64,000 bases of DNA from positions 62,001-126,000 of the forward strand of contig NZ_FNZK01000012.1 of the NCBI RefSeq assembly GCF_900109225.1, written 5' to 3'. Below, one piece after another: positions 38,771 through 54,211 of this stretch. This DNA is from Propionispira arboris. GTDB taxonomy: Bacteria; Bacillota; Negativicutes; Selenomonadales; Selenomonadaceae. The position numbers and the translations under genes are program-made. Each line of letters opens with the position of its first letter. Position 1 is the first letter of the stretch. The notes beneath the pieces were generated by a model that was given only the letters and a program-made list of their open reading frames with translations, was not told where the DNA came from and did no database searches.

Positions 38771-41725
38771 ATGATACGAATTTTAAGAAAAATGATTGAT
38801 ACAGAAGATAAAAAGAATCCTTTTACGGATGAAAAATTAGCTCAAATGATGTCTTTGTCCAGAGTAAAGGTAGTTCATTTAAGGTTAATGGCGGGTATTC
38901 CTAATTCACGGGAAAGAAGGAAGAATATAATTCTGTCAGAATGTGCAAAGATAATTTTATCAAATGATAAGTCTAAAATTTCTGACAGGCAATTTACTGG
39001 TCTTTTGAATCAGCATGGATATAATATTTCACGTTATACAGCAGTGGAATTAAGAAAGCAAATTGAGTTAGAGGTTGCTCAAGGAAAATGGAAAGAAATG
39101 GTGCCTATGAATTCTGAATTAGATCCAATTGAGAGTATAGAATCTAAACAAGTTAGTAAGCAAGCGGTGGCTAAAGATATTGCATTTAGTAATATTATTG
39201 GCTATAAAAAAGGCATAAAAACACAGATTAATCAAGCCAAAGCTGCAATTTTATATCCACCGCATGGGTTAAATACTTTATTAACGGGTCCGTCAGGGGT
39301 AGGAAAATCATATTTAGCTGAAAATATGTATAGATTTGCTATTAAAGAGGGGATATTAGAAGATAAGGCACCGTTTGTTGTATTTAATTGTGCCGATTAT
39401 GCAGATAATCCACAGCTTCTTTTGGCGCAATTATTTGGTTATGTTAAAGGAGCGTTTAGTGGAGCGGTTACATCAAAAACAGGGTTAGTAGAAAAAGCAA
39501 ATCAAGGGATTTTGTTTTTGGATGAAGTACATAGATTACCGAGTGAAGGGCAAGAAATTTTATTTTCAATTTTAGATAAGGGTGAATTTAGACGCTTGGG
39601 TGAGACTTGTGCTACTAAAATTACAATCAGAATTATCGCGGCCACAACAGAAAATCTAGAATCAACACTTTTACTTACCTTTCGTCGGCGTATACCGATG
39701 GTGATAGATATTCCTTCATTATCAGAACGTCCAATAAGTGAGCGGTTTTCTATTATAAAAAAATTTTTCAAACAAGAAGCTTTGCAAATACAACGTACGA
39801 TAAAAGTTGATTCTGCGGTTATGAAATTTTTACTGATATACGAATGTAGGGGTAATATAGGTCAGCTGCTTAGTGATATACGTGTTGCTTGTGCAAATGG
39901 CTTTTTAAGTTGTATATCTGCTGGTACAGATGGAATTCTGATTTCTCCCGATACTTTATTAAATTATCATAGAGTGGATTTATTACAAAAGAATAGAACA
40001 TATGGAGAACTTACCCAATATGCAAGCAGCGATATTGTGTTTGATATGAATCCATTAAATGAAACAATAGAAGAAAATATGGAAATTTCATTCGAAAAAA
40101 TTTATACCATTATTGAGAAGAGTTTTTTAGAGTTACGAAACAGTAAAATTGCAGAAAAAGAGGTAAATAGGATTGTTCAAAATCGTCTCAATTTAGAAAT
40201 AAAAAAATATTTAGAGGGTAAAGAAAATTTAAATACAGCTATGTTAGAGCTGGAATCAATTATAGATTCGCATATGATTCAAGCTGTCAAGCAAGCTGTA
40301 TGTATTGCAAAGCGTTATATTCCGCTGCTAGAAGATCGTATTTACTATTTTGTGTCGATTCATTTAAGTACACTTTGTGATCATATTAAAAGTGGTATTT
40401 ATAAAACGGCGGCAGTGGATCTTATTAATATTAAAGAAAATTATAAAAAGGAGTACGCTGTTGCTAAATTAATGATGCTTGAAATTGAAAATGAATTAAA
40501 ATTGACATTTCCTAAAGAAGAAGTTGCAATGCTGACGATGTATTTAAAAACATTTTCACAAGGAAATATAGACTCGACGGGAAAAGTAAAAGTTTTAGTT
40601 TTAACGCATGGACGCGTGGCAAGTGGAATGGCAGAGGTGGTAAATCATCTTTTAAATGTAAATGATGTTGTTGGTATAGAAATGGGGTTGGATGAACATC
40701 CAGATAATGTGTTAGAAAGAACTATAAAAATTATTAAAGAAATTGATGAGGGGAAAGGCTGTCTTTTATTAGTGGATATGGGGTCTTTGACAAAGTTTGG
40801 GGAGGTTATTACAAAGCAGACAGGTATACAAACCTGTAGCATTGGGCGGGTAGACACTGTAATGGTATTAGAGGCTGTGAGAAGAGCTGCATTGATGGAT
40901 ATGAAATTAGAAACTATCGTTGAAGCTTTATCACTTGATCCATATTATATAAATAAAATAGGTAGTGCTGGCAGTATTGATAAGACCAAACAGAAGGCAA
41001 TTATTTTATCGTGCATTACCGGTGAAGGTAATGCAAAAAAAATGAAAGATTATATACAAGATGCGGTTGCTGGCATTGAAGAAACTGTAGAACTTTTTAC
41101 AGTTGGGGTTTTGCAGGCAGAAAAAATGGCGGAAAGTATAGAAGCAATTATGCAGCAGTATCATGTCATTGCTGTTGTTGGAACGATGAATCCATTCATT
41201 AAAGCGGTACCATTTATTTCTGTAGAAAAAGTTTTGAGTGGTGAGGGAATTTATCAAATAAAATCAGCGATTGGAAGAAACGCACAGCAACGAGTAGTTT
41301 TTACCGATGTAATTCATGAGGAATTGATAGTTTGTAAATTGGACTTAGCAGATAAGATACAAGTCATAGATTATATGTCGCAGATGCTTGAAAATTATGG
41401 AGCTGTAATGAAGGAGTTCGTTTTAAGTGCCTATAAAAGAGAAAGTATTGGAGCCACCTATCTTAATGGTGGGATTGGTATCCCGCATGGTGATGGTTCT
41501 TATGTTACAAAATCTGCCATGGCTGTGGCTAGTCTAGTTCAGCCAATTACTTGGGAAAATGATTTTATGGTAGATTTAGTTTTTTTATTTGCATTGACAG
41601 AAAATGATCAACAGTATATAAATTATTTTTATCAAATTATATCGAATAAAGAAGCCGTTTTAGGCTTAAAATCAGCAAAATCCATTCAGGGAATGCAGCA
41701 GATATTGAGTGGAAAACAATTTTAA
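38771..41725 (+). CDS. LevR-type sigma-54 activator with PTS regulatory domains
   Basis: 984 residues. The N-terminal region (1-100) is DNA-binding; ISDRQFTGLLNQHGYNISR resembles the RpoN-box helix-turn-helix. A sigma-54 AAA+ domain follows, with Walker A GPSGVGKSYLA (about 172-182), the sigma-54 contact loop GAFSGA (about 227-232) and FLDEVHRLP. Then come a PRD-like helical region (about 430-570), an EIIA-Man-like domain with LTHGRVASGM (His near 613), an EIIB-like part, and a C-terminal EIIA-Fru/Mtl-type domain with GIGIPHGD (His near 906). Such proteins switch on PTS operons according to phosphorylation. A sigma-54 promoter lies 9 bases after its stop. Confidence 0.92.
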   Translation: MIRILRKMIDTEDKKNPFTDEKLAQMMSLSRVKVVHLRLMAGIPNSRERRKNIILSECAKIILSNDKSKISDRQFTGLLNQHGYNISRYTAVELRKQIELEVAQGKWKEMVPMNSELDPIESIESKQVSKQAVAKDIAFSNIIGYKKGIKTQINQAKAAILYPPHGLNTLLTGPSGVGKSYLAENMYRFAIKEGILEDKAPFVVFNCADYADNPQLLLAQLFGYVKGAFSGAVTSKTGLVEKANQGILFLDEVHRLPSEGQEILFSILDKGEFRRLGETCATKITIRIIAATTENLESTLLLTFRRRIPMVIDIPSLSERPISERFSIIKKFFKQEALQIQRTIKVDSAVMKFLLIYECRGNIGQLLSDIRVACANGFLSCISAGTDGILISPDTLLNYHRVDLLQKNRTYGELTQYASSDIVFDMNPLNETIEENMEISFEKIYTIIEKSFLELRNSKIAEKEVNRIVQNRLNLEIKKYLEGKENLNTAMLELESIIDSHMIQAVKQAVCIAKRYIPLLEDRIYYFVSIHLSTLCDHIKSGIYKTAAVDLINIKENYKKEYAVAKLMMLEIENELKLTFPKEEVAMLTMYLKTFSQGNIDSTGKVKVLVLTHGRVASGMAEVVNHLLNVNDVVGIEMGLDEHPDNVLERTIKIIKEIDEGKGCLLLVDMGSLTKFGEVITKQTGIQTCSIGRVDTVMVLEAVRRAALMDMKLETIVEALSLDPYYINKIGSAGSIDKTKQKAIILSCITGEGNAKKMKDYIQDAVAGIEETVELFTVGVLQAEKMAESIEAIMQQYHVIAVVGTMNPFIKAVPFISVEKVLSGEGIYQIKSAIGRNAQQRVVFTDVIHEELIVCKLDLADKIQVIDYMSQMLENYGAVMKEFVLSAYKRESIGATYLNGGIGIPHGDGSYVTKSAMAVASLVQPITWENDFMVDLVFLFALTENDQQYINYFYQIISNKEAVLGLKSAKSIQGMQQILSGKQF

Positions 41726-41733
41726 CCATTTAT

Positions 41734-41749
41734 TGGCATGTGGCTTGCA
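41734..41749 (+). promoter_or_regulatory. Sigma-54 (-24/-12) promoter of the PTS sugar-acid operon
   Basis: TGGCATG (41734-41740), four bases, TTGCA (41745-41749); the GG and GC dinucleotides are 12 bp apart, as sigma-54 requires. It lies between the activator gene and the aldolase. Transcription would start near 41760. Confidence 0.88.
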
Positions 41750-41757
41750 TAATAGAT

Positions 41758-41794
41758 AAGTATGAATCAAAAGACGATTCGTACTTATTTTTTT
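41758..41794 (+). terminator. Terminator-like hairpin at the very 5' end of the operon transcript
   Basis: AAGTATGAATC pairs over 11 bp with GATTCGTACTT around a 7-base loop, followed by A and eight T. It lies after the sigma-54 promoter and just before the GGAGG of the aldolase gene. It could end the activator transcript, attenuate the operon or protect the mRNA 5' end. Confidence 0.75.
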
Positions 41795-41806
41795 GGAGGT
41801 CATCAG

Positions 41807-42436
41807 ATGAAAAAAAAACTAGCAGAATTTTCTCCTGTAACGGCTATTCTTAGAGGTTATGATTATGAGCAAGTGAAAACGGTAGTGGAAGTTTTGCTGG
41901 ATAGTCAGGTTCGTGCCGTGGAAATCACGCTGAATCGAGAAGATTCAATGCAGATTATTCGTAAAATTGTTGAAGCATATGGAGATTCTATTGCTGTTGG
42001 GGCGGGAACTGTTCTAAAGAAACAAGATCTTGAACAGGTAATTGAGATTGGTGCTGATTTTGTTTTATCACCGATTATGTTTTCTCCGGCAATGCTGGAT
42101 TTATGTAAGCAGCATGCGGTAATAAGTATTCCAGGAGCATATTCACCTACCGAGATCTATCAATCATTTCACGATGGGGCGGATATTGTGAAAGTTTTTC
42201 CGGCAAGGGGATTAGGGACAAAATATTTTCAAGATATTGCAGCGCCGTTTGGTGAACTACCACTCATGGCAGTGGGAGGCGTTAATGCAGAGAATGTTGC
42301 ACAATATAGAAAGGCTGGAGCAAAATATGTCGGGATTGCATCTGGGATTTTTCAGCCACAAGATATTAAAAGACAAGATAAAGTTGGTCTGAAAAAATCA
42401 TTATCATATTTTGAAAGTCGTGTCAAAGGGGATTGA
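41807..42436 (+). CDS. KDPG/KDPGal aldolase family enzyme
   Basis: 209 residues from the ATG at 41807, which has TTGGAGG before it; an upstream in-frame ATG at 41762 lies at the predicted transcript start and is not used. Class I aldolase that splits a 2-keto-3-deoxy-6-phospho sugar acid into pyruvate and glyceraldehyde 3-phosphate. Schiff-base Lys129 is in DIVKVFPARG and Glu39 in VEITLNRED. It is the first gene of the sigma-54 operon. With a DgoD-like enzyme present, the DgoA reaction (KDPGal) is the likeliest. Confidence 0.9.
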   Translation: MKKKLAEFSPVTAILRGYDYEQVKTVVEVLLDSQVRAVEITLNREDSMQIIRKIVEAYGDSIAVGAGTVLKKQDLEQVIEIGADFVLSPIMFSPAMLDLCKQHAVISIPGAYSPTEIYQSFHDGADIVKVFPARGLGTKYFQDIAAPFGELPLMAVGGVNAENVAQYRKAGAKYVGIASGIFQPQDIKRQDKVGLKKSLSYFESRVKGD

Positions 42437-42439
42437 AAA

Positions 42440-42919
42440 ATGGATGATGGGTTATGTTTTAATGAAAAATTAATTTTCAAATTATCAGATGAAATTGATT
42501 CTAAGGAAATTGCTTTGAGCTTTTTGGCAGAGCAATTATATGCCAAACAATATGTAACGGAAGGTTATAAAAAAGGTATATTAGAGCGAGAAAAAATATA
42601 TCCGACAGGATTGTTTACGGGTGGTATTAATATTGCCGTGCCACATACAGATTGTATCCATGTTCGATGCGATGCATTTGCTATGGGGGTTTTATCGAAA
42701 CCGCTTACCTTTTACGCGATGGACGATCCGGAACGAGAAATTGATGTAAACATAATTTTTATGCTTGCCTTAAGTCAGCCACATGGACAAATTGCAATGC
42801 TGCAGAAGGTTTTAGCTTTGGTCAAGGAACAAGAACAATTGAAGAAAATGATCAATTGTAAAGATGTAAAAACTATTTATGATATCTGTTTAAAATATTT
42901 AATTAGAGGAGACGAGTAA
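42440..42919 (+). CDS. PTS EIIA component, fructose/galactitol type
   Basis: 159 residues. PTS_EIIA_2 domain; phospho-accepting His69 is in INIAVPHTDCIHV. It passes phosphate from HPr to the EIIB encoded next. It starts three bases after the aldolase stop and ends one base before the EIIB start, so it is clearly operonic. Similar in class to GatA. Confidence 0.9.
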   Translation: MDDGLCFNEKLIFKLSDEIDSKEIALSFLAEQLYAKQYVTEGYKKGILEREKIYPTGLFTGGINIAVPHTDCIHVRCDAFAMGVLSKPLTFYAMDDPEREIDVNIIFMLALSQPHGQIAMLQKVLALVKEQEQLKKMINCKDVKTIYDICLKYLIRGDE

Positions 42920-42920
42920 T

Positions 42921-43199
42921 ATGAAAAGAGTTTTAGTTGCGTGTGGAAATGGAATTGCTACATCAACAGTAGTGGCACAAAAGGTTCGCGAAGCTTGTGA
43001 AGAGAAAGGGCTTTCTATTTTAGTAAGTCAGTGTAAACTTTTGGAACTTAGTGGGAAAGCAAATGATTTTGATTTGGTTATAACGACTGGGAAATTTACT
43101 GGAGATGGTGTCACTGTTCCTATAATAGGTGCAATTTCATTATTAACTGGTGTTGGTGAAGACGAAACCATTGAAAAAATAATTCAGATACTGCAATAG
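42921..43199 (+). CDS. PTS EIIB component, galactitol type
   Basis: 92 residues. The N-terminal P-loop-like phosphocysteine motif VLVACGNGIATST carries Cys8, typical of GatB-like EIIB. It receives phosphate from EIIA and phosphorylates the sugar as EIIC transports it. Confidence 0.92.
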   Translation: MKRVLVACGNGIATSTVVAQKVREACEEKGLSILVSQCKLLELSGKANDFDLVITTGKFTGDGVTVPIIGAISLLTGVGEDETIEKIIQILQ

Positions 43200-43210
43200 G
43201 AGGTAGGAAA

Positions 43211-44572
43211 ATGGATTTAGTTTATAGTGCATTTAATACATTATTATTAGCCGGTCCGATTGTACTTTTACCAATAATCATTACTGTTGTGGGGCTTTTG
43301 TTTAGAGTAAAGGTACTCAAGGCATTTCGATCAGGTTTAATTATTGCCATTGGTTTTGCGGGAATTAAATTAGTTGTTAATTTACTTTCGGATAATTTAG
43401 GTCCTGCTGCGAAGGCGATGGTAACTAATTTTGGTATCAAATTGGATATTTTGGACGTTGGTTGGGGCGCAATTGCGGCGGTTACCTGGTCATCCCCAAT
43501 TATTCCATTGCTGATTTTTGGTATTTTGTTGACGAATGTTTTGATGCTTGTGTTGAAGCTGACGGACACGTTAGATGTTGATATCTGGAATTATCATCAT
43601 ATGGCTATTGTTGGAATTATGGCGTATTTTGCTACGAATAATGTATTTATCGGGTTAGGGGCATCTGTTGTTATGGCGATTATTTCTTTTAAATTAGCCG
43701 ACTGGACAGCCCCGGCAGTTGAAAAGTATTTTGGTATTCCCGGAGTTTCATTGCCGACTATGTCCGCCTTATCATCTGTTATTATAGCGGCGCCACTAAA
43801 TAAAATTATTGATCAAATTCCTGTAATTAATAAAATTGATTTTTCGGCAAAAGATGCGCAAAAATATTTAGGCTTTTTTGGAGAACCAATTTTTATGGGG
43901 TTGATTTTAGGATGTGGTATTGGGGTGTTAGCCGAATATAAGATCACGGCAATCTTTGCGTTGGGAGTTAATATGGCAGCTGTAATGATTTTGATTCCTA
44001 AAATGACAGCATTATTTATGGAAGGGTTAATTCCAATTTCTGAAGCTGCTAAAAAATTAACCAAAGAAAAATTTAAGGGGAGAAAATTCTTAATTGGTCT
44101 TGATGCAGCGGTGGTTGTAGGGGATTCAACGGTTATTACAGCAGGGTTAATCATTATTCCATTAACGATTTTGATGGCAACGATTATTCCAGGTAATCGA
44201 GTTTTGCCATTTGCTGATTTAGCGGTTATACCTTTTAGGATAGCGTTGATTGTGGCATTGTGTAATGGAAATTTATTTAGAAGTATTTTAATTGGACTGG
44301 TTTGTATGGTGTTGATTTTATTGGCGGGGACGGCTACTTCCCCAGTGCTAACTGGATTAGCAACTTCTGTGGGGATTGATATTTCAGCAAGTGGCGGGAT
44401 TTCATCGTTTGCTGCAACGAGTTTAACTGTCAGTTATTTGGTATTTACAGCATTTACAAGTAATTTAATGTTGAGCCTGCCATTATTAGGTGCTGGCATT
44501 ATTGGTACATGGATATATATTGATAAATTTAAAGGTAATAAAACGAGTGAAGAAAAAATTGAAGATCTATAA
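43211..44572 (+). CDS. PTS EIIC component, galactitol (GatC) family
   Basis: 453-residue membrane permease, about ten to twelve segments, with GatC-family features (LDVGWGAIAAVTWSSPIIPLL region and the NNVFIGLGASVVMAI block). It carries the substrate across the inner membrane with phosphorylation by the EIIB. AGGAGG precedes the ATG. The substrate cannot be read from sequence; the flanking aldolase and dehydratase suggest an aldonate rather than galactitol. Confidence 0.92.
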   Translation: MDLVYSAFNTLLLAGPIVLLPIIITVVGLLFRVKVLKAFRSGLIIAIGFAGIKLVVNLLSDNLGPAAKAMVTNFGIKLDILDVGWGAIAAVTWSSPIIPLLIFGILLTNVLMLVLKLTDTLDVDIWNYHHMAIVGIMAYFATNNVFIGLGASVVMAIISFKLADWTAPAVEKYFGIPGVSLPTMSALSSVIIAAPLNKIIDQIPVINKIDFSAKDAQKYLGFFGEPIFMGLILGCGIGVLAEYKITAIFALGVNMAAVMILIPKMTALFMEGLIPISEAAKKLTKEKFKGRKFLIGLDAAVVVGDSTVITAGLIIIPLTILMATIIPGNRVLPFADLAVIPFRIALIVALCNGNLFRSILIGLVCMVLILLAGTATSPVLTGLATSVGIDISASGGISSFAATSLTVSYLVFTAFTSNLMLSLPLLGAGIIGTWIYIDKFKGNKTSEEKIEDL

Positions 44573-44624
44573 AAATGTAAATTTTATCGAAATACGCTAG
44601 GGTAAGAAAAGGAGTGTAAAATTT

Positions 44625-45770
44625 TTGAAAATTTCAGCAATTAAAATATATAGGGTTAAGCCAAGATGGATTTTTATTAAAATTACCACAGACGAAGGGA
44701 TCGAAGGCTGGGGAGAAATGATTTCTGGAACCAAAACAGAAACTGTGGTGGCTGGTGCAACTGAAATGGGCGAGTATCTTATCGGGCGTAATCCTTTCGA
44801 TATTGAATCATTATGGCAGGAGCTTTATAAATCATTTTTTCGTGGTGGTCCAATCAATTCTACGATTGTATCTGGCATTGAAACTGCATTATGGGATATT
44901 AAAGGAAAGTTTTGTAATTTGCCAATTTATGAACTTTTGGGCGGCAAAGCGCGTGATAAGATTATGGTCTATTCATGGATTGGTGGTGACAGACCGGATG
45001 ATGTAGTCAAAGAAGCGATAGATCGTAAAAACAGAGGCTTTAAGGCAGTGAAAATGAATGCAACAGAAGAACTGCATTATATTGATTCTTATGAAAAAGT
45101 ACAAGCGGTTGTCGATCGAGTTGCTTCGATTCGAGATACTATGGGTATTGATTTTGGTATTGCAGTCGATTTTCATGGGCGAGTACATAAACCTATGGCA
45201 AAAGTTTTGGCAAGAGCCTTAGATCCTTATAAACTGATGTTTATGGAAGAAGTGGTTTTGCCGGAAAATGAAGAAGCATTTAAAGAGATTGCTAAATATA
45301 CAGCCACACCTTTGGCTACCGGTGAGAGATTGTGTACGAGATGGGAATATAAAAATTTATTTAAAGAGGGGATTATTGATATTATTCAGCCCGATGTTGC
45401 CTTGGCAGGCGGTATTTTAGAAACGAGAAAAATTATTGCTATGGCAGAAGCTTTCGATATGGCAGCAGCACCGCATGCTCCGTATGGACCGATTGCGTTG
45501 GCGGCAACCTTACAAATTGATGCATGTTCACCAAATGTATTTATCCAAGAACAAAGTTTGGGGATTCATTATAATAAAGGTTTTGATTTATTGGATTTCA
45601 TAGAAAATAAAGAAATTTTTCAGTATAAAAATGGATTTGTTAATTTACCAAATAAACCTGGTTTGGGTTTAGAAATCAATGAAGATTTGGTTCAGAAAGT
45701 TTCAGAAGAAGGTCTGGTTTGGACGAATCCAAAATGGAAAAATTATGATGGAACGCATGCGGAATGGTAA
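44625..45770 (+). CDS. DgoD-like galactonate dehydratase (enolase superfamily)
   Basis: 381 residues, matching E. coli DgoD in length and motifs. The N-terminal capping domain is followed by a barrel with metal ligands in AVDFHGR (Asp, and the catalytic His two on), FMEEVV and ATGERL, and the second His in AAPHAPYGP. DgoD dehydrates D-galactonate to 2-keto-3-deoxygalactonate. Here a PTS would deliver a phosphorylated substrate, so the true substrate may be the 6-phosphate. The start is TTG at 44625 with AAGGAG 10 bases before. Last gene of the operon. Confidence 0.87.
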   Translation: MKISAIKIYRVKPRWIFIKITTDEGIEGWGEMISGTKTETVVAGATEMGEYLIGRNPFDIESLWQELYKSFFRGGPINSTIVSGIETALWDIKGKFCNLPIYELLGGKARDKIMVYSWIGGDRPDDVVKEAIDRKNRGFKAVKMNATEELHYIDSYEKVQAVVDRVASIRDTMGIDFGIAVDFHGRVHKPMAKVLARALDPYKLMFMEEVVLPENEEAFKEIAKYTATPLATGERLCTRWEYKNLFKEGIIDIIQPDVALAGGILETRKIIAMAEAFDMAAAPHAPYGPIALAATLQIDACSPNVFIQEQSLGIHYNKGFDLLDFIENKEIFQYKNGFVNLPNKPGLGLEINEDLVQKVSEEGLVWTNPKWKNYDGTHAEW

Positions 45771-45820: not shown

Positions 45821-45878
45821 TAAAAGGATCGATATATAATATCCCGTTCACGGGCATAGTTTATATCGGTCCTTTTTG
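45821..45878 (+). terminator. Large hairpin terminator of the PTS sugar-acid operon
   Basis: A 15-bp outer stem AAAAGGATCGATATA / TATATCGGTCCTTTT with G-T pairs, an inner CCCG-TTCA-CGGG hairpin, then T5. It is related in sequence to the hairpin at 38412. Confidence 0.85.
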
Positions 45879-46364: not shown

Positions 46365-47303
46365 ATGTATAAATGGAAGCAAAAGACAGTCTTGTTTACC
46401 ATGATTTTGAGTTTTATAACCAGCTGTAGTATTGTTTTTGCCGCTGAACCGCCGGTAGGTGTTTCAATCTTAAAATATGACCGACCAGCAGGCACGAATG
46501 ATTTACCTCGGAATTTTCGAACAGCTCAAAGTGAATTTAAAAAGACGAGTAAGGATCAAACCATGCCTTCGCGCGAAGGGTTAGAAAATTTGCGGCTTTC
46601 TGGTAGCAGCTATTTTTCTAAAAACGAATTTCGAGAAATGTTAAAGCAACTGCCGAAACATGATTTGGTGATTTTGGATTTGCGAGCGGAATCACATGGC
46701 TATATTAATGACAATGGTGTGAGTTGGTACACTGCTTATAAAGCCGCCAATCGTGATATGAGTGCTAAGCAGATTGATGCAGTAGAAATGGAAGCACTGA
46801 ATGCAGTATTACATAAAGTCGTTCCAGTTGCCGTCCTCAGTAAGGATAAATCGATTGATTCGGAGGATGCTTTATATGTAGAACAGGTCATGACAGAAAA
46901 AGAATTTGTTGAATCGCAAGGTGTGAGATATTATCGCATCCCTGTTGCTGACTATGATGCACCTAGTGATGCAAATATTGATCAGTTTTTAAAGTTTTAT
47001 AAGAAACTGGCTGGCAATACATGGATACACACACATTGTGAAGCTGGTGAAGGGAGAACCACTACCTTTATGAGTATGATTGACATGCTGCATAATGCTG
47101 AAAACCTTAGCTATGATGAAATTATGACCCGTCAAGTGCTGCTGGGAGGTCAGGACCTTCGGTCAGCAACATCAAAAGATTCGGTAAAAAAGGAAGGTTA
47201 TCTTAGACGAGCGTTGTTCACCAAGCATTTTTATGATTATGTAAAAGTGAATCCGGATTTGGGAAAACACTGGAGTCAATGGGCTAAAGAACAGGGATAC
47301 TGA
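46365..47303 (+). CDS. PTP-like phytase (myo-inositol hexakisphosphate phosphatase), single domain
   Basis: 312 residues from the ATG at 46365, which has AAAGGAG eight bases before it. A Sec signal peptide (about residues 1-26, ending SIVFAAE) exports it. The cysteine-phosphatase loop HCEAGEGRTT has Cys225 and Arg231, the hallmark of PTP-like inositol polyphosphatases such as Selenomonas PhyA. The N-terminal LPRNFRTAQSEF and the GLENLRLSGS block are shared with both domains of the next protein. It should remove phosphate from phytate outside the inner membrane. Confidence 0.92.
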   Translation: MYKWKQKTVLFTMILSFITSCSIVFAAEPPVGVSILKYDRPAGTNDLPRNFRTAQSEFKKTSKDQTMPSREGLENLRLSGSSYFSKNEFREMLKQLPKHDLVILDLRAESHGYINDNGVSWYTAYKAANRDMSAKQIDAVEMEALNAVLHKVVPVAVLSKDKSIDSEDALYVEQVMTEKEFVESQGVRYYRIPVADYDAPSDANIDQFLKFYKKLAGNTWIHTHCEAGEGRTTTFMSMIDMLHNAENLSYDEIMTRQVLLGGQDLRSATSKDSVKKEGYLRRALFTKHFYDYVKVNPDLGKHWSQWAKEQGY

Positions 47304-47441
47304 TCTATCAGCGGATAAACAAAAATACAAAACCAATGAATGAAGACGTTCTTTTGCAATAAAAAATAATTATTAAAATAAAAATTCATTTGTGACAACA
47401 GTATTTTGAATAAAAAATCAATTTTTGAGGGAGTGGTATGG

Positions 47442-49340
47442 GTGTATACGAAGACTAGTAAAAAAGGAATCTTGTCAATTCTACTGGCTTTTATTCTCTT
47501 GTTGCAGATGACAGCAGCAGTTTTAGCCAAAGATGGTAGTAATAGTGCTGAAAAAACGCCTAAATTGGCAGTTAAAATTGATCGGAATGATATAGATCAA
47601 TTGCCGAGGAATTTCAGAATGTCTACGGATGAATTCAAAAGTTATCCTAAAAATGGAGTAATGCCATCGAGAAAGGGTCTTGATACATTAGGAAACTCAG
47701 CAAGCAGTGCTTTTTCAGAAACTGAGTTTGTTAATGTTTTAAAACAATTACCGACAGTGCCTGATAAGGTCTATGTAATTGATCTGCGTGGCGAGTCTCA
47801 TGGCTATTTAAATGGTACCTGCGTGAGCTGGTTCGCTCCACCGAGTAATTGGGGTAATGATGGTCGGACACTTGAACAAGTAAAAGCTATAGAGCAGGAA
47901 CAATTGCAGAAGCTGTTTAAAGCTTCTCCAGTAAAAGTCTATAATTTTGATGACAATAAAAATGTTTTACTGGATCAGATTGAATTTTCCATAAATCGCG
48001 TGCGAACAGAAGAAGAAATGGTCAAAGAACATGGTGCCCATTACTTTAGGTTAGCGTTATCTGATCATTTTCGTCCCGATGATAGTGATGTGGATACATT
48101 CCTTGCTTTCTATAAAACATTACCGAAAGATGCCTGGCTTCATTATCATTGCTTTGCAGGAATGGGAAGAACGACAATATTCGCTGTCATGGCAGACATA
48201 TTGAAAAATGCTCATGATGTAAGTTTTAAAGCTATTGTGGATCGTCAAGGCATTTTAGGCAATACAAACTTAAGCAATATCCCTGACAATAAGAAGAACT
48301 GGGGGCGCAAAGGGTATATTGAACGTTATCAGTTCGTGAAACATTTCTATGACTATGTAAAAGACAGCCCGCGTGATTTGCCGAAAACTTGGAGTCAGTG
48401 GGCAAAAGAACATGACTATGAAACTTATACGCCAGACTATGAAGGTTATGTATGGCGTGTTGATACGAAGAACGTTGACCAATTACCGCGGAATTATCGA
48501 AGCTCAAATGATGTTTTTAAAGTACCAAAAAAAGTCAATAAAGAAGCTGATTTAACCTATATTCCGTCACGGAAGGGATTGGATTCCTTGTATATTTCTG
48601 GCAGTGCCCAGTGTTCACAGCTAGAATTTAATCAGCTGATGACGAACCTTAAGACAATGGCTAAGGGACCAATCTACATCGTCGATTTGAGACAAGAATC
48701 ACATGGATTACTCAATGGTAATGGTGTTAGCTGGTATGGCGATCGTGATTGGAGCAATATAAATAAGACGTATGACCAGATAATTGCCGATGAAAAAATA
48801 CGATTGAAAGCTACGTTAAATAAAAAGACTGTTTTGTCGGTACTTGATGATGATAAAAAAGCAGCAGATCCACAGTTGGAAAAAATCACAAGTGCATTGA
48901 CGGAAGAAGAAATGGTTAGAAATGGCGGAGCAAATTATTTTAGGATTACAGCAACAGATCATATTTGGCCGAGTCCGGAAAATATTGACCGCTTTATGAA
49001 TTTTGTGAAGACTTTGCCGCAAAATTCATGGCTGCATTTTCATTGTCAGGCCGGTGAGGGGCGTACAACCGCATATATGGTTATGTATGATATGATGAAA
49101 AACCCAGATGCAAGCTTGAAAGATATTGTATATCGTCAATATTTGCTTGGTGGTCAATATACGATGTTCACTGGAAGTGGCAAAAATAGTTGGAAAAATG
49201 ATTATTATGCTGAAAAAGCCAGAATCATTCCACGATTTTATCAGTATGTGCAAGAAAATGCGGCTAATGGTTTTAAGATTCTATGGTCGCAATGGATAAA
49301 AGAAAATAAACCTGCTAATACGGAGTCTGCTATACAGTAA
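47442..49340 (+). CDS. Tandem double-domain PTP-like phytase
   Basis: 632 residues from GTG at 47442, with GAGGGA nine bases before; an open frame begins earlier at a TTG (47406). The signal peptide spans about residues 1-28. Two complete phosphatase repeats follow. The first has HCFAGMGRTT (Cys237) and the second HCQAGEGRTT (Cys535); each starts with a DQLPRNxR motif and a PSRKGLD block. This resembles the tandem phytase of Mitsuokella. In domain 1 the loop position usually Glu is Phe, so its specificity may differ. It lies between the single-domain phytase and a porin, probably one operon. Confidence 0.92.
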   Translation: MYTKTSKKGILSILLAFILLLQMTAAVLAKDGSNSAEKTPKLAVKIDRNDIDQLPRNFRMSTDEFKSYPKNGVMPSRKGLDTLGNSASSAFSETEFVNVLKQLPTVPDKVYVIDLRGESHGYLNGTCVSWFAPPSNWGNDGRTLEQVKAIEQEQLQKLFKASPVKVYNFDDNKNVLLDQIEFSINRVRTEEEMVKEHGAHYFRLALSDHFRPDDSDVDTFLAFYKTLPKDAWLHYHCFAGMGRTTIFAVMADILKNAHDVSFKAIVDRQGILGNTNLSNIPDNKKNWGRKGYIERYQFVKHFYDYVKDSPRDLPKTWSQWAKEHDYETYTPDYEGYVWRVDTKNVDQLPRNYRSSNDVFKVPKKVNKEADLTYIPSRKGLDSLYISGSAQCSQLEFNQLMTNLKTMAKGPIYIVDLRQESHGLLNGNGVSWYGDRDWSNINKTYDQIIADEKIRLKATLNKKTVLSVLDDDKKAADPQLEKITSALTEEEMVRNGGANYFRITATDHIWPSPENIDRFMNFVKTLPQNSWLHFHCQAGEGRTTAYMVMYDMMKNPDASLKDIVYRQYLLGGQYTMFTGSGKNSWKNDYYAEKARIIPRFYQYVQENAANGFKILWSQWIKENKPANTESAIQ

Positions 49341-49392
49341 TGCTTGGCAGCAGCTATATCAAAAAATTTTAGCAAAAATGGGGCGTGTGAAA

Positions 49393-50487
49393 ATGAACAG
49401 AAAATTATTGACAACATTGGTGCTGGGAGCACTTATTTTGACGAACGGAGTGACTACAACTTATGCTGCAGGGTTACAGCTGCCTGGTGATGGAAAGCTT
49501 GGAAAATTGGGCGATGAGGTTACGGATGTTGATGGAGGCAAAACGAAGGCTAAACAGGAGCTGAAAAAAGAAAAAGATGTGTCTGTTAAAATAGCAACAA
49601 AGACAGAAGTGAAGAACGATGCGGCTTCATCTACCAAAATCAAGCATGAGGGGAAATTATATGTAGACGGTAAAATTGATGATATGTGGACTGCAGAAGT
49701 CGGGCTGAATATTGAAACGAAGACTGATAATGGAAAACAAAGTGAAACGGAAAAGTGGGAAATGGAAAATGTCTGGTTGGAATATCAAAAGTCACCAGAA
49801 TTTTCTTTTAAGTTTGGACGTCAAACCTATCATTTGGCGAAAGGGCTATATATGGATCAGGATGGCGTCTTTGGCGGCAAGGCAATTTATAAGCTTGATA
49901 AAAATAATACAGCAGAAGTTTTTCTTGGTCGGGATGATCAGGATAGAGATGGAGTTGGCATCAAATTAAAAAATGGTAAGGTTACGGCTACGCCGGCAAG
50001 CAATACTACATTGTTAGAGGTGTTAAATTTTGCTCATAAACTCAAGCATGGCTCAATTGGTACATATATAGCAAAACAGGATCGACAGGATCAATATGGT
50101 GGTGGTACAGATAAGTTCTTAGGGCTATATGGTAATTATCGTGTAGTGCCAAATACGGATTTCAATTTTGAATATCTGAAAAACAATGAGACCGACACAA
50201 ACGGGTATGTTGCTGAATTGAAGTTTGGAAAGTTGAAAAAGGTCGGGGATTATACGTTTGCCGTAGACTATATGGACGTCGATAAAGAGCTGATGAATAC
50301 GAATAATTATACAGACTATGATAGTCAGATCAGCGACCCGGCATTGGGCTTCAAAGGACCAGGAGTTACTGTAGTAAATAAATTGTCCAAACATTCGCAG
50401 CTACAATTGCAGAGATGGTGGGGTCGCGATAAAGCAGATCAGACATCCATTCCGGTTACAAAATTGATATTGTATGTGAAGTTTTAA
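49393..50487 (+). CDS. Outer-membrane porin-like beta-barrel protein
   Basis: 364 residues from ATG at 49393; in-frame starts at 49378 and 49387 are alternatives. The signal peptide ends TTYAA. A polar Lys/Asp-rich linker (about 30-70) is followed by alternating beta strands (VWLEYQKSPEFSFKFGRQTY, and others) and a C-terminal VKF. Ending in Phe is the outer-membrane-protein insertion signal. It fits a diderm Negativicute. Placed after two phytases, it may take up phosphate or inositol phosphates; that is inference from position. Confidence 0.8.
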   Translation: MNRKLLTTLVLGALILTNGVTTTYAAGLQLPGDGKLGKLGDEVTDVDGGKTKAKQELKKEKDVSVKIATKTEVKNDAASSTKIKHEGKLYVDGKIDDMWTAEVGLNIETKTDNGKQSETEKWEMENVWLEYQKSPEFSFKFGRQTYHLAKGLYMDQDGVFGGKAIYKLDKNNTAEVFLGRDDQDRDGVGIKLKNGKVTATPASNTTLLEVLNFAHKLKHGSIGTYIAKQDRQDQYGGGTDKFLGLYGNYRVVPNTDFNFEYLKNNETDTNGYVAELKFGKLKKVGDYTFAVDYMDVDKELMNTNNYTDYDSQISDPALGFKGPGVTVVNKLSKHSQLQLQRWWGRDKADQTSIPVTKLILYVKF

Positions 50488-50605
50488 AAATGTCTAAGTG
50501 TAGAACTGCGTGCGGAAATCATTTGATGAGAAACATAGCATGATCGTCAGTACTATATTTTATAGGCATATGAAATAGCTTACATAAAAAGTAAGTTGAA
50601 TAAGA

Positions 50606-50645
50606 TGGCTGTATAGGAAATTGATAGATTTTCTGTACAGCCATT
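50606..50645 (+). terminator. Stem-loop after the porin gene
   Basis: A 14-bp stem GGCTGTATAGGAAA / TTTTCTGTACAGCC with G-T pairs and a short loop; only ATTT follows, so termination strength is uncertain. Confidence 0.6.
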
Positions 50646-50695
50646 TAGCCTTGTGCGGGAAAATAACATAGTTTTTTCAAGGGGGAAGTAATATT

Positions 50696-52693
50696 ATGGC
50701 AGGCAATTTAAGGTTAAGAACAAAACTGCTCGTGCTGCTGCTCATTCCAATAATCTTTATTTTAGGTAGTGTGAGCATGTATTCATACTATGGTGCACGG
50801 AATTTATTAAATGATCAGATTAGACAGACGGCGCTTTATATTGTAAACAGCAATAGTGTAAAAATGTATTCATATTTAAAGGAAAAAGAAGCTTTGGTAT
50901 CTATGACAGCTGATTTTTTAGGAGGTAAAGAGATAAGTAAAGCGGATGAAATTGATTTTTTAAAGCATGTAAAGACTTCTTGTCCGGGGATACAGTCTGC
51001 ATATACTGGTTATGCAAACTTAACAGCGGCAGATTCTCAAGGGGTTACCGAGCAAGAAAAACCTGTTGGCTATGATCCGCGAACTCGTGACTGGTATAAA
51101 AGTGCAGTGGCGTCGGATACTGCTGCTTATACGCCGATTTATGAGGCTTCAGATAAAAGCCTTTCTGCCGGAGTCGTGAAGAAAATTATGCGAAATGGCC
51201 AAGTAGCTGGAGTTGCCGGAATTACTTTGGATATAAATCCTATTCGTAAGTTAGCACAAGAATTTAAACTGGCGGAAACAGGTTATGCAGCGATACTTGA
51301 CGCGAAGGGGAATTTTGTATATCATCCTGAATTTCGTCTTACCGATAATATAGACGAAGTTGAAGACGGTGTTCTGGCAAAATATAGCCAGACTTTTATG
51401 AATGGTGAAAATTCTGTACAAACGGCGAATATAAATGGCAAGGAAATTATGATGGCAGCTTCTCCAATCGGAAGCACGGGCTGGACTTTTATGACATTTG
51501 TACCGCAGGAAGAAATGTTAGAAAAGGTAACAGTGTTGGGCAAGAATTTTTTGGTGGCTGGCATTGCAGGACTTTTTTTATTAACTGGAATAATTATAGG
51601 CATTACCATGAAAATTACAGCCAGAATTAAGATGGTAGAAATTATGGCTGAACAAGTAGCAAATGGAGATTTGTCTATCGGACAGGTTAGGACCAATATA
51701 CGATTTGGTGACGAGATTGATAATTTAATCAGTAATTTTGTTAGGATGAAACGAAATTTGGGTGAACTTATTCAGCGAGTATATCATTCAGCTGAGCAGG
51801 TAGTGGAATCTAGTGAACAGGTCAAGCTTAATTCGAGCCAATCGGCGGCGGCTTCTGCGAATGTTGCTGAATCGATAACATTAATTAGCCAAGGTTTAGA
51901 AAATCAGGCAAGTTCATTAAATAACATTGTTGCTGTTGTGAGTGGTATCGCAAAAAATATTGAAGGCACTGCTGCTAATGCTTTGGACATTAGGAATGTT
52001 GCAGAAAAAGCAACAAAGACAAGCAATACGGGACAAAGGTTAATTGATCAAGCTGTTGAGCAGATGGATAATATGGTTCAGACAGCCAGGCTCGCACAAG
52101 AAACTTCTGGTAAACTGGAACAAAGTTCTATGGAGATTGTACAAATTGTAGAATTGATTTCCAATATTGCTGGTCAGACCAATCTTTTGGCACTTAATGC
52201 GGCAATTGAAGCTGCCCGAGCAGGTGAGCAAGGACGTGGCTTTTCTGTTGTTGCTGATGAGGTGAGAAAGCTTGCGGAACAATCTGATTTGGCGGCAAAA
52301 AAAATTGCTATATTGATTCAAGAACATAATCAGGGAATAAACAATGTTGTTAGTTCTATTGAATTGTCGATTGATAATGTTGATCAAGGGGTTCAAATTG
52401 TGAATTTGGCAGGCGCTGAATTTAAAAGAATTACATCCTTAATAACAGTTGTAAGCGAACAGGTGAGAAGTATTTCTAGTCTGATGCAGCCTTTATCAGC
52501 TGGAAGTAAAGCAATTGTTGTTTCGATAGGTGAGGCCAATCAACAGAGTCATAATTCGATGGGAGCTGTACAAACTGTATCGGCAGCCGCAGAACAGCAA
52601 TCGGCTGCTTTGGAAGAAATTTCGAAAACTTGCATGAATTTAGCAGATCTGTCTGAAGAACTTAAGGAACAAGTGAGGAAATTCAAAATTTAA
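50696..52693 (+). CDS. Methyl-accepting chemotaxis protein with dCache sensor
   Basis: 665 residues. Membrane segment 1 (about 9-31), an extracytoplasmic dCache domain (about 35-280), membrane segment 2 (about 282-303), HAMP (about 305-360), then the signalling domain with its hairpin tip [16 protein letters not shown]. The sensor has [17 protein letters not shown] and a later TLDI, which resemble amino-acid-binding dCache proteins; ligand prediction is tentative. No other chemotaxis gene is in the window. AAGGGGGAAG precedes the ATG. Confidence 0.93.
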
Positions 52694-53404: not shown

Positions 53405-54211
53405 GTGCCTGCTAATTTAACTACAGAACAATTTTCTGGACACAGTTTCACTTTTCTAAATTTACCTGCTGATCAACAAAGTGTCGGCTATAAAATTTTC
53501 ACACCAGCACAGGCAGAACAAGGAGATCAATCTTCGCCAATTAATTTTTCTGAACATTTTGCCAAAGAAGCTACTGTGAGTAAAGTGATCCCAGACCCGG
53601 CTACAAAAGAATATTTAGTATATCTAACAGTAAATGATACGGGGGAAGAATTGGCGGAACACACCAGACACGGCCAGTTAAGCAGCCTGGTATTAACATC
53701 TGATTTAATAAATGCCAAAGAACAGTTCATGGGTAAAACAATTTATCCTAAAACGCGAAATTTGTCAGGCAGCGATGATGTAACAACACCTATTTTAATC
53801 GGTAGTGCTGTTACTGTAGTTGATGTAGTGGCTAGTTCACAAGCACGAAAACCAATTTCATTGGTTGTCTCTGTAAATGGGAAAAACGCTATTCTACCGA
53901 TAGCTTATAGCTGGACTAACATACCATCAACTGACTGGTCAAGTGCACCAGCTTGGCAAGAAGATTTATTTCTTCAAGACCCAAGAACTACATTAGGATG
54001 GTCATCAGACACATGGGAAAATATTGAAAAGGCCAGCGTGGTCGAAAATATGACAAAAGATCAGGTACTGCTCAGTTGGGGGAAACCAAATCGGACTGAA
54101 AGTAATTCAACTGCTTGGATTTACGGTTCCAAAAAGTTAAATTTCTCTGGCAGTGTAGTATCATCTATTGAAACGATCACCGAAACAGCTCCGATTGAAA
54201 CAATCAACTAA
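53405..54211 (+). CDS. Unrecognised protein, probably missing its N terminus
   Basis: 268 residues from GTG at 53405. I do not recognise the family. The last 60 residues (VVENMTKDQVLLSWGKPNR) resemble the SmpA/BamE-like motif of some envelope proteins. A good AAGGAG site and ATG at 53392 sit in another frame and encode only seven codons. The main frame has a stop at 53393 and no ribosome site of its own. A deletion or frameshift that removed a signal peptide would explain this, so the gene may be broken. Confidence 0.55.
   Translation: MPANLTTEQFSGHSFTFLNLPADQQSVGYKIFTPAQAEQGDQSSPINFSEHFAKEATVSKVIPDPATKEYLVYLTVNDTGEELAEHTRHGQLSSLVLTSDLINAKEQFMGKTIYPKTRNLSGSDDVTTPILIGSAVTVVDVVASSQARKPISLVVSVNGKNAILPIAYSWTNIPSTDWSSAPAWQEDLFLQDPRTTLGWSSDTWENIEKASVVENMTKDQVLLSWGKPNRTESNSTAWIYGSKKLNFSGSVVSSIETITETAPIETIN

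Follow-up and report, generated by a model that had tools for sequence, protein, structure and literature searches.

The window analysed here is a stretch of 64,000 nucleotides from the Negativicute Propionispira arboris (NCBI RefSeq assembly GCF_900109225.1, contig NZ_FNZK01000012.1, positions 62,001 to 126,000). Its positions 46365-50487 hold a locus for phytases of the protein tyrosine phosphatase (PTP)-like family. An open reading frame check placed three genes on the forward strand, for a single-domain phytase (P1), a tandem-domain phytase (P2) and a porin, where the original prediction, made by a model from the sequence alone, had put them. The gene that follows was absent from that prediction and encodes a methyl-accepting chemotaxis protein (MCP). 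The features are:

45821-45878, forward strand: hairpin upstream of P1, a terminator-like boundary (-27.4 kcal/mol, z -5.78), then a T-rich tail
46365-47303, forward strand: P1, predicted exported single-domain PTP-like phytase; ATG start, loop HCEAGEGRTT at 47034-47063, general-acid loop VADYDAP, P1 clade in the tree
47441-49340, forward strand: P2, predicted exported tandem-domain PTP-like phytase, homologue of PhyAmm; pair of PF14566 domains, match to PDB 3f41
47550-48416, forward strand: domain D1 of P2; loop HCFAGMGRTT at 48147-48176, general acid SDHFRP, 65% identity to PhyAmm D1
48426-49310, forward strand: domain D2 of P2; loop HCQAGEGRTT at 49041-49070, general acid ATDHIWP, 56% identity to PhyAmm D2 and 50% to PhyAsr
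49393-50487, forward strand: phytase-linked porin; signal peptide, barrel of 16 or 17 strands, C-terminal Phe (...YVKF)
50603-50646, forward strand: 20-pair hairpin 3' of the porin, terminator-like, without a long T run (-28.1 kcal/mol, z -5.93)
50696-52693, forward strand: MCP with a dCache_1 sensor, of a phytase-linked subfamily (Pfam and sensor profile)

The P2 frame is opened by TTG 47406, and GTG 47441 is an alternative start with a better Shine-Dalgarno sequence. For the porin, whose frame is open from 49378, ATG 49393 is a likelier start than ATG 49378. The gap between P2 and the porin is 37 bases, and folding of the P1-P2 intergenic region gave no strong hairpin. Because hairpins bracket the three genes, P1, P2 and the porin probably form one transcription unit; the chemoreceptor gene probably gives a separate transcript. 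Separate regulation of the porin, named in the original prediction as an outcome that would refute it, was not seen: there is no terminator among the three genes, and strong hairpins lie only outside them. Little could be learned from simple scans for promoters and terminators (19 promoter-like sites versus 20 expected). On inspection, P1, P2 and the porin each begin with a signal-peptide-like N-terminus. In that of P1 (window 46365-46450), ITSC fits a lipobox (VVSC in the sister genome) and an AxA-type cleavage site is also present; a lipoprotein anchor is possible.

The three cysteine-phosphatase loops of the HCxAGxGRTT type that had been pointed out in the two exported proteins all lie inside PF14566 domains. 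P1 scored 98.5 bits and the two stretches of P2 together 192.9 bits (curated cut-off 27). As all three loops fall within domains far above the cut-off, they are not chance motifs. A general-acid Asp stands about 30 residues before each loop (VADY in P1, LSDH in D1, ATDH in D2) and aligns with ATDH of PhyAsr from Selenomonas ruminantium (PDB 1u24). Residues 49-633 of P2 match PhyAmm of Mitsuokella multacida (PDB 3f41, 4wu3) end to end (803 bits, E 9e-241, for 3f41). Like P2, PhyAmm holds two PTP-like domains in one exported chain, with the loops HC[Y/F]AGMGRTT in D1 and HCQAG.GRTT in D2, but its D2 loop reads HCQAGAGR where the window has HCQAGEGR, with Glu for Ala. PhyAsr shares the fold and motifs but has a single domain.

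The internal duplication of P2 is real, as had been claimed, but old: D1 and D2 are 43% identical, and each groups with its own clade. In the phylogeny of the three domains, P1, D1 and D2 fall in three separate clades. D1 lies in a 13-row clade with PhyAmm D1 (support of 100 in the Shimodaira-Hasegawa-like approximate likelihood ratio test), and a supported D1 clade (99) also takes in unfused single-domain forms from Pelosinus and other relatives outside the window's family. D2 clusters with PhyAsr (support 98), while P1 belongs to another clade (support 100) with DY instead of DH in the general-acid loop. The tandem P2 thus unites domains from two old clades, with P1 as a third type. The remark that loop 1 of P2 has Phe where Glu is usual was right about the residue, but the residue is no oddity. 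Among 88 phytase domains compared, HC[F/Y]AGMGRTT and DHFRP occur in nearly all D1-clade members, PhyAmm D1 with its Tyr included, and this is a clade signature. P2 is 95% identical to P2 of the sister genome, Propionispira raffinosivorans. By these comparisons, both enzymes are of an already known kind. A further single-domain phytase of the window genome (L055:7927-9003, G000:C18) has the loop HCMAGEGRTT, sits on a long branch and has neither porin nor MCP beside it.

Linkage of phytases to porins was counted by a search across 300 Negativicutes genomes with a profile of linked porins, strong matches scoring at least 70 bits; a P2-based scan of genome contigs had given 2 loci only. PF14566 was present in 130 of the 300 genomes. 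A phytase adjoins 18 of the 19 strong porin loci, in four families. Since some of the sequences behind the profile were linked porins from an earlier search, this sample depends to a degree on the hypothesis. The linked loci belong to the window's family (G000, the window genome, G011, G228, G023, G084, G025 with two, G278 with two, G273, G285, G124, G303 and G279) and to three others (G059 and G070 in f6, G140 in f31, G099 in f27). Loci found by the profile alone were phytase-linked too (G228, G084, G278, G273, G285, G124, G303, G070, G140, G099 and G279). Under random placement, the probability would be about 1e-28 for 18/19 with a generous model and about 7e-16 per genus (10/11 genera); neither figure takes common descent into account. 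The linked loci differ in gene order and strand, and frozen synteny was rejected on these grounds as the cause of the linkage. The sole unlinked locus (L102:712-1688, G104:C147) is split into two open reading frames in a genome without a phytase; decay may have followed loss of the phytase, or the reverse.

Most phytases, including the additional one in the window genome, have no linked porin. Where the tandem phytase of a genome is nearly identical to the M. multacida enzyme, the porin lies beside it; a linked porin or receptor is not described in the PhyAmm sources consulted. At L104:4964-8358 (G138:C1), a phytase nearly identical to PhyAsr has a 127-residue porin remnant upstream and an MCP with a 4HB-type sensor directly downstream. 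Two other linked porins (L053:4786-6030 in G025:C5, and G278:C17:4065-5303) have an in-frame TAG in common, close to the N-terminus, and are either decayed or read otherwise.

For the chemoreceptor, a profile of the sensor region was run against the 300 genomes. Six matches exceeded 400 bits (G000, G059, G070, G077, G140 and G303), every one beside a phytase. The next-best match scored 278 bits, and no weaker match lay beside a phytase. With G001 and G016 added, 8/8 receptors of the subfamily adjoin phytases; outside the window genus, the sensor domains are 47-61% identical to that of the window. All eight retain Y126, R131, W133, Y134 and Y149 of the amino-acid motif of dCache_1AA receptors (Y121, R126, W128, Y129 and Y144 in PctA), whose dCache fold they share. 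They differ at the final Asp of the motif, which is Thr or Gly in 8/8 linked receptors and D, E or N in 18/18 unlinked ones. This Asp is conserved in both amino-acid and amine dCache motifs (D235 in PctD; PMC10104139). In addition, Lys62 and Lys122 are invariant in and specific to the linked receptors, and three residues are inserted before the motif. Because the eight receptors form one subfamily, the loss of the Asp may be a single event. In genus g25, phytase and porin have another receptor type next to them, an MCP with a 4HB sensor, as does the PhyAsr-type phytase of G138; at L093:6402-8120 and L094:4433-6151, a receptor with a 4HB_MCP_1 sensor directly adjoins phytase and porin. The most economical guess is that the ligand of the dCache receptor is an inositol phosphate or a breakdown product. 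Across the Negativicutes, a tie of phytases to one porin subfamily and one chemoreceptor subfamily is well supported by these genome comparisons.

The porin had no match in Pfam, NCBIfam or PDB sequences. Its AlphaFold model (mean pLDDT, the predicted local distance difference test, 74; barrel mostly above 80) shows 16 or 17 strands, and Phe369 at its C-terminus is invariant in 19 aligned rows, in line with the C-terminal-Phe porin originally described after the phytases. OmpM1 of Veillonella parvula (PDB 8bys), also a Negativicute porin, was the best solved structural match (Z 27.6), with OprB, OprO, OprP and OmpF at about 20. Proteins of the OmpM type have an SLH attachment domain, as does an OmpM-like neighbour in L049. 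The window porin, by comparison, has no SLH match in Pfam, only a short disordered N-terminus of about 40 residues from signal peptide to barrel, and other pore-facing basic residues. OprP and OprO, the phosphate and polyphosphate porins of Pseudomonas, would be alike in role and share the general barrel fold, but the window porin is no closer to them in fold than to OmpF-type porins. Their pores are strongly basic, with an arginine ladder and a lysine cluster; the linked porins have a conserved lysine stripe, but their inward net charge is not raised.

Pore-facing residues were assigned from strands and side-chain alternation and compared with those of 18 generic porins; this comparison replaces an initial one with 3 controls, which had looked stronger. 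Inward lysines common to the linked porins lie at positions 75, 87, 89, 113, 341, 364 and 368, on strands 1-3 and 16-17. These seven positions are not basic in most of the generic porins, whose conserved arginines sit elsewhere. Of the seven, K75, K87, K89 and K368 are present in the window porin, which has E113, Q341 and I364 at the other three. On the modelled barrel, the pore wall of the linked porins appears remodelled, not more positive.

Further genes suggest a connection of these clusters to inositol catabolism. In Pelosinus fermentans JBW45 (L048/L089), the order is iolG, an OPA-like transporter of the major facilitator superfamily (MFS), a PHP-domain protein, a 972-residue metallophosphatase, two PTP-like phytases, the porin, a further PTP-like phytase, a beta-propeller phytase, an MCP and a sugar ABC ATPase; iolG and iolE adjoin the Pelosinus phytase cluster. 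Beta-propeller phytases, a family unrelated to the PTP-like one, were found in 3 of the 300 genomes, each time inside these clusters. Of the 300 genomes, 25 have the metallophosphatase; a PTP-like phytase is also present in 22 of these (base 130/300), and the two are adjacent in 13. The OPA-like transporter, too, recurs next to phytases in relatives. The window genome has the MFS transporter (733 bits) and the metallophosphatase (49% identical) at G000:C28:47452-51840, near iolC, iolD, iolE and iolG. As the metallophosphatases show no signal peptide on inspection, a cytosolic phosphatase step is suggested. A PHP-domain protein without a signal peptide recurs beside the metallophosphatase (L048:1811-2521, L099:15115-15822 and L108:2775-3485) and is possibly another inositol phosphate phosphatase.

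The locus is best explained as a system for utilisation of phytate (InsP6), with a probability of about 0.8. Harvesting of inositol phosphates in a diderm Firmicute, the role originally proposed, is supported by the Negativicute genome, the porin linkage, the second phytase family within the clusters and the iol genes, which adjoin the cluster in Pelosinus and lie by the partner genes in the window genome. The comparisons show which genes are present, the identity of their domains and catalytic motifs, the conservation of the linkage, the probable layout of the transcription units and the iol context, while the substrates of each domain, the selectivity of the pore, the ligand of the receptor and the roles of the transporter and cytosolic phosphatase are inferences. 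The porin would pass inositol polyphosphates or their products across the outer membrane. D2 of P2, of the PhyAsr/PhyAmm-D2 type, would begin on InsP6, and D1 and P1 would complete the breakdown of lower inositol phosphates to phosphate and inositol or inositol monophosphate. The monophosphate would be imported by the OPA-type (GlpT/UhpT-like) transporter and dephosphorylated by the signal-less metallophosphatase, the inositol would be consumed by the iol pathway, whose genes lie elsewhere in the genome, and the adjacent chemoreceptor would steer the cell toward substrate or product. When Mitsuokella jalaludinii grows on phytate, a periplasmic phytase likewise feeds inositol catabolism, with a transient build-up of Ins(2)P and inositol (PMC7618129). 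These data would fit an OPA-like transporter that brings Ins(2)P into the cell for cytosolic cleavage. More tentative, at somewhat less than even odds, is the fuller proposal that the linked dCache receptors sense inositol phosphates or a direct phytate product, for which the linked porins would be selective channels; with the phytases, organophosphate transporter, cytosolic phosphatase and iol genes, these would make a complete sense-import-degrade system.

Nevertheless, several observations weigh against phytate utilisation as set out here. The transporter/phosphatase pair and the iol genes of the window genome lie on another contig (C28), so that its phytate system would be split over two loci. 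The MFS protein at G000:C28:47452 scores 205-245 bits against the PgtP, UhpC and GlpT models, below the curated cut-offs. Close relatives have a tandem phytase without a porin (G173, G205, G215 and G273:C137), and the porin is thus not essential. Positive pore charge was rejected as a sign of anion selectivity, the mean inward net charge being 2.5 versus 1.1 in generic porins (p 0.44).

General scavenging of organic phosphate, by broad phosphatases and a generic porin of the phosphate-stress type, without a special link to phytate or inositol, would agree with this ordinary charge and with the general fold of the metallophosphatase. PTP-like phytases also differ in substrate range, D1-type enzymes having been reported as broad with low activity (PMC3981807). 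Two unrelated phytase families per cluster and flanking iol genes point to inositol phosphates instead, and in the tree the P1 and D1 clades hardly occur outside clusters of the phytase-porin type; scavenging is accordingly judged unlikely. It is quite improbable that the porin is a generic Negativicute porin kept by phytases through inherited synteny, with no functional tie. The OmpM1-like fold, distant generic relatives and the tandem-phytase loci lacking a porin speak for this, but linkage persists over four families through changes of order and strand, the only unlinked copy is broken, and the conserved pore-facing lysine set is unlike that of generic porins.

As for the chemoreceptor, amino-acid and amine dCache sensors are its nearest matches in fold, it retains most of the amino-acid motif, a hairpin separates it from the operon, and MCP genes are numerous in these genomes; it might therefore sense amino acids or another common nutrient and be unrelated to phytate. 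The substitution of the final Asp throughout the linked receptors, the restriction of the subfamily to the neighbourhood of phytases and the presence of a different receptor, with a 4HB sensor, by phytase and porin in another genus make this somewhat unlikely. The best NCBIfam model for P1 and P2 is XopH, which would make them effector-like or signalling phosphatases and not nutrient phytases. That identity is hardly credible and was rejected, the scores of 158 and 400 bits being below the cut-off of 500; Sec-like signal peptides, the porin operon, the iol context and the close relationship to PhyAmm and PhyAsr over the whole length also argue against it.

For phytate utilisation, the new part is the association of phytase, porin and receptor, which is apparently undescribed. 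No phytase-linked porin or chemoreceptor system was found among the titles and abstracts listed from the open-licence literature, although one may be described elsewhere, and a search through the main text on M. jalaludinii turned up no porin, chemotaxis or tandem enzyme. Phytate is a main phosphorus store of plant food and feed and is degraded by Mitsuokella-type gut bacteria. How this large hexa-anion crosses the outer membrane of diderm Firmicutes, and whether these bacteria seek it, seems undescribed. The linkage singles out testable genes, namely porin, receptor, transporter and cytosolic phosphatase; Mitsuokella, which is known to grow on phytate, is a further place to test them.

Some neighbouring genes were also recorded. 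Upstream, window 38771-45770 encodes a sigma-54/PRD activator, an aldolase, a gat-type phosphotransferase system and a galactonate dehydratase, with a strong hairpin at the end. This operon is of sugar-acid or galactitol type and separate from the phytase operon, the hairpin at 45821-45878 standing between the two. Downstream, window 53405-54211 encodes a 268-residue protein without a Pfam or NCBIfam match, which is kept in the sister genome (L056:5605-6363). Finally, a Tat-signal protein of 382-394 residues without other family match recurs beside phytases (L049:4454-5602, L051:5088-6272 and L108:6760-7929).

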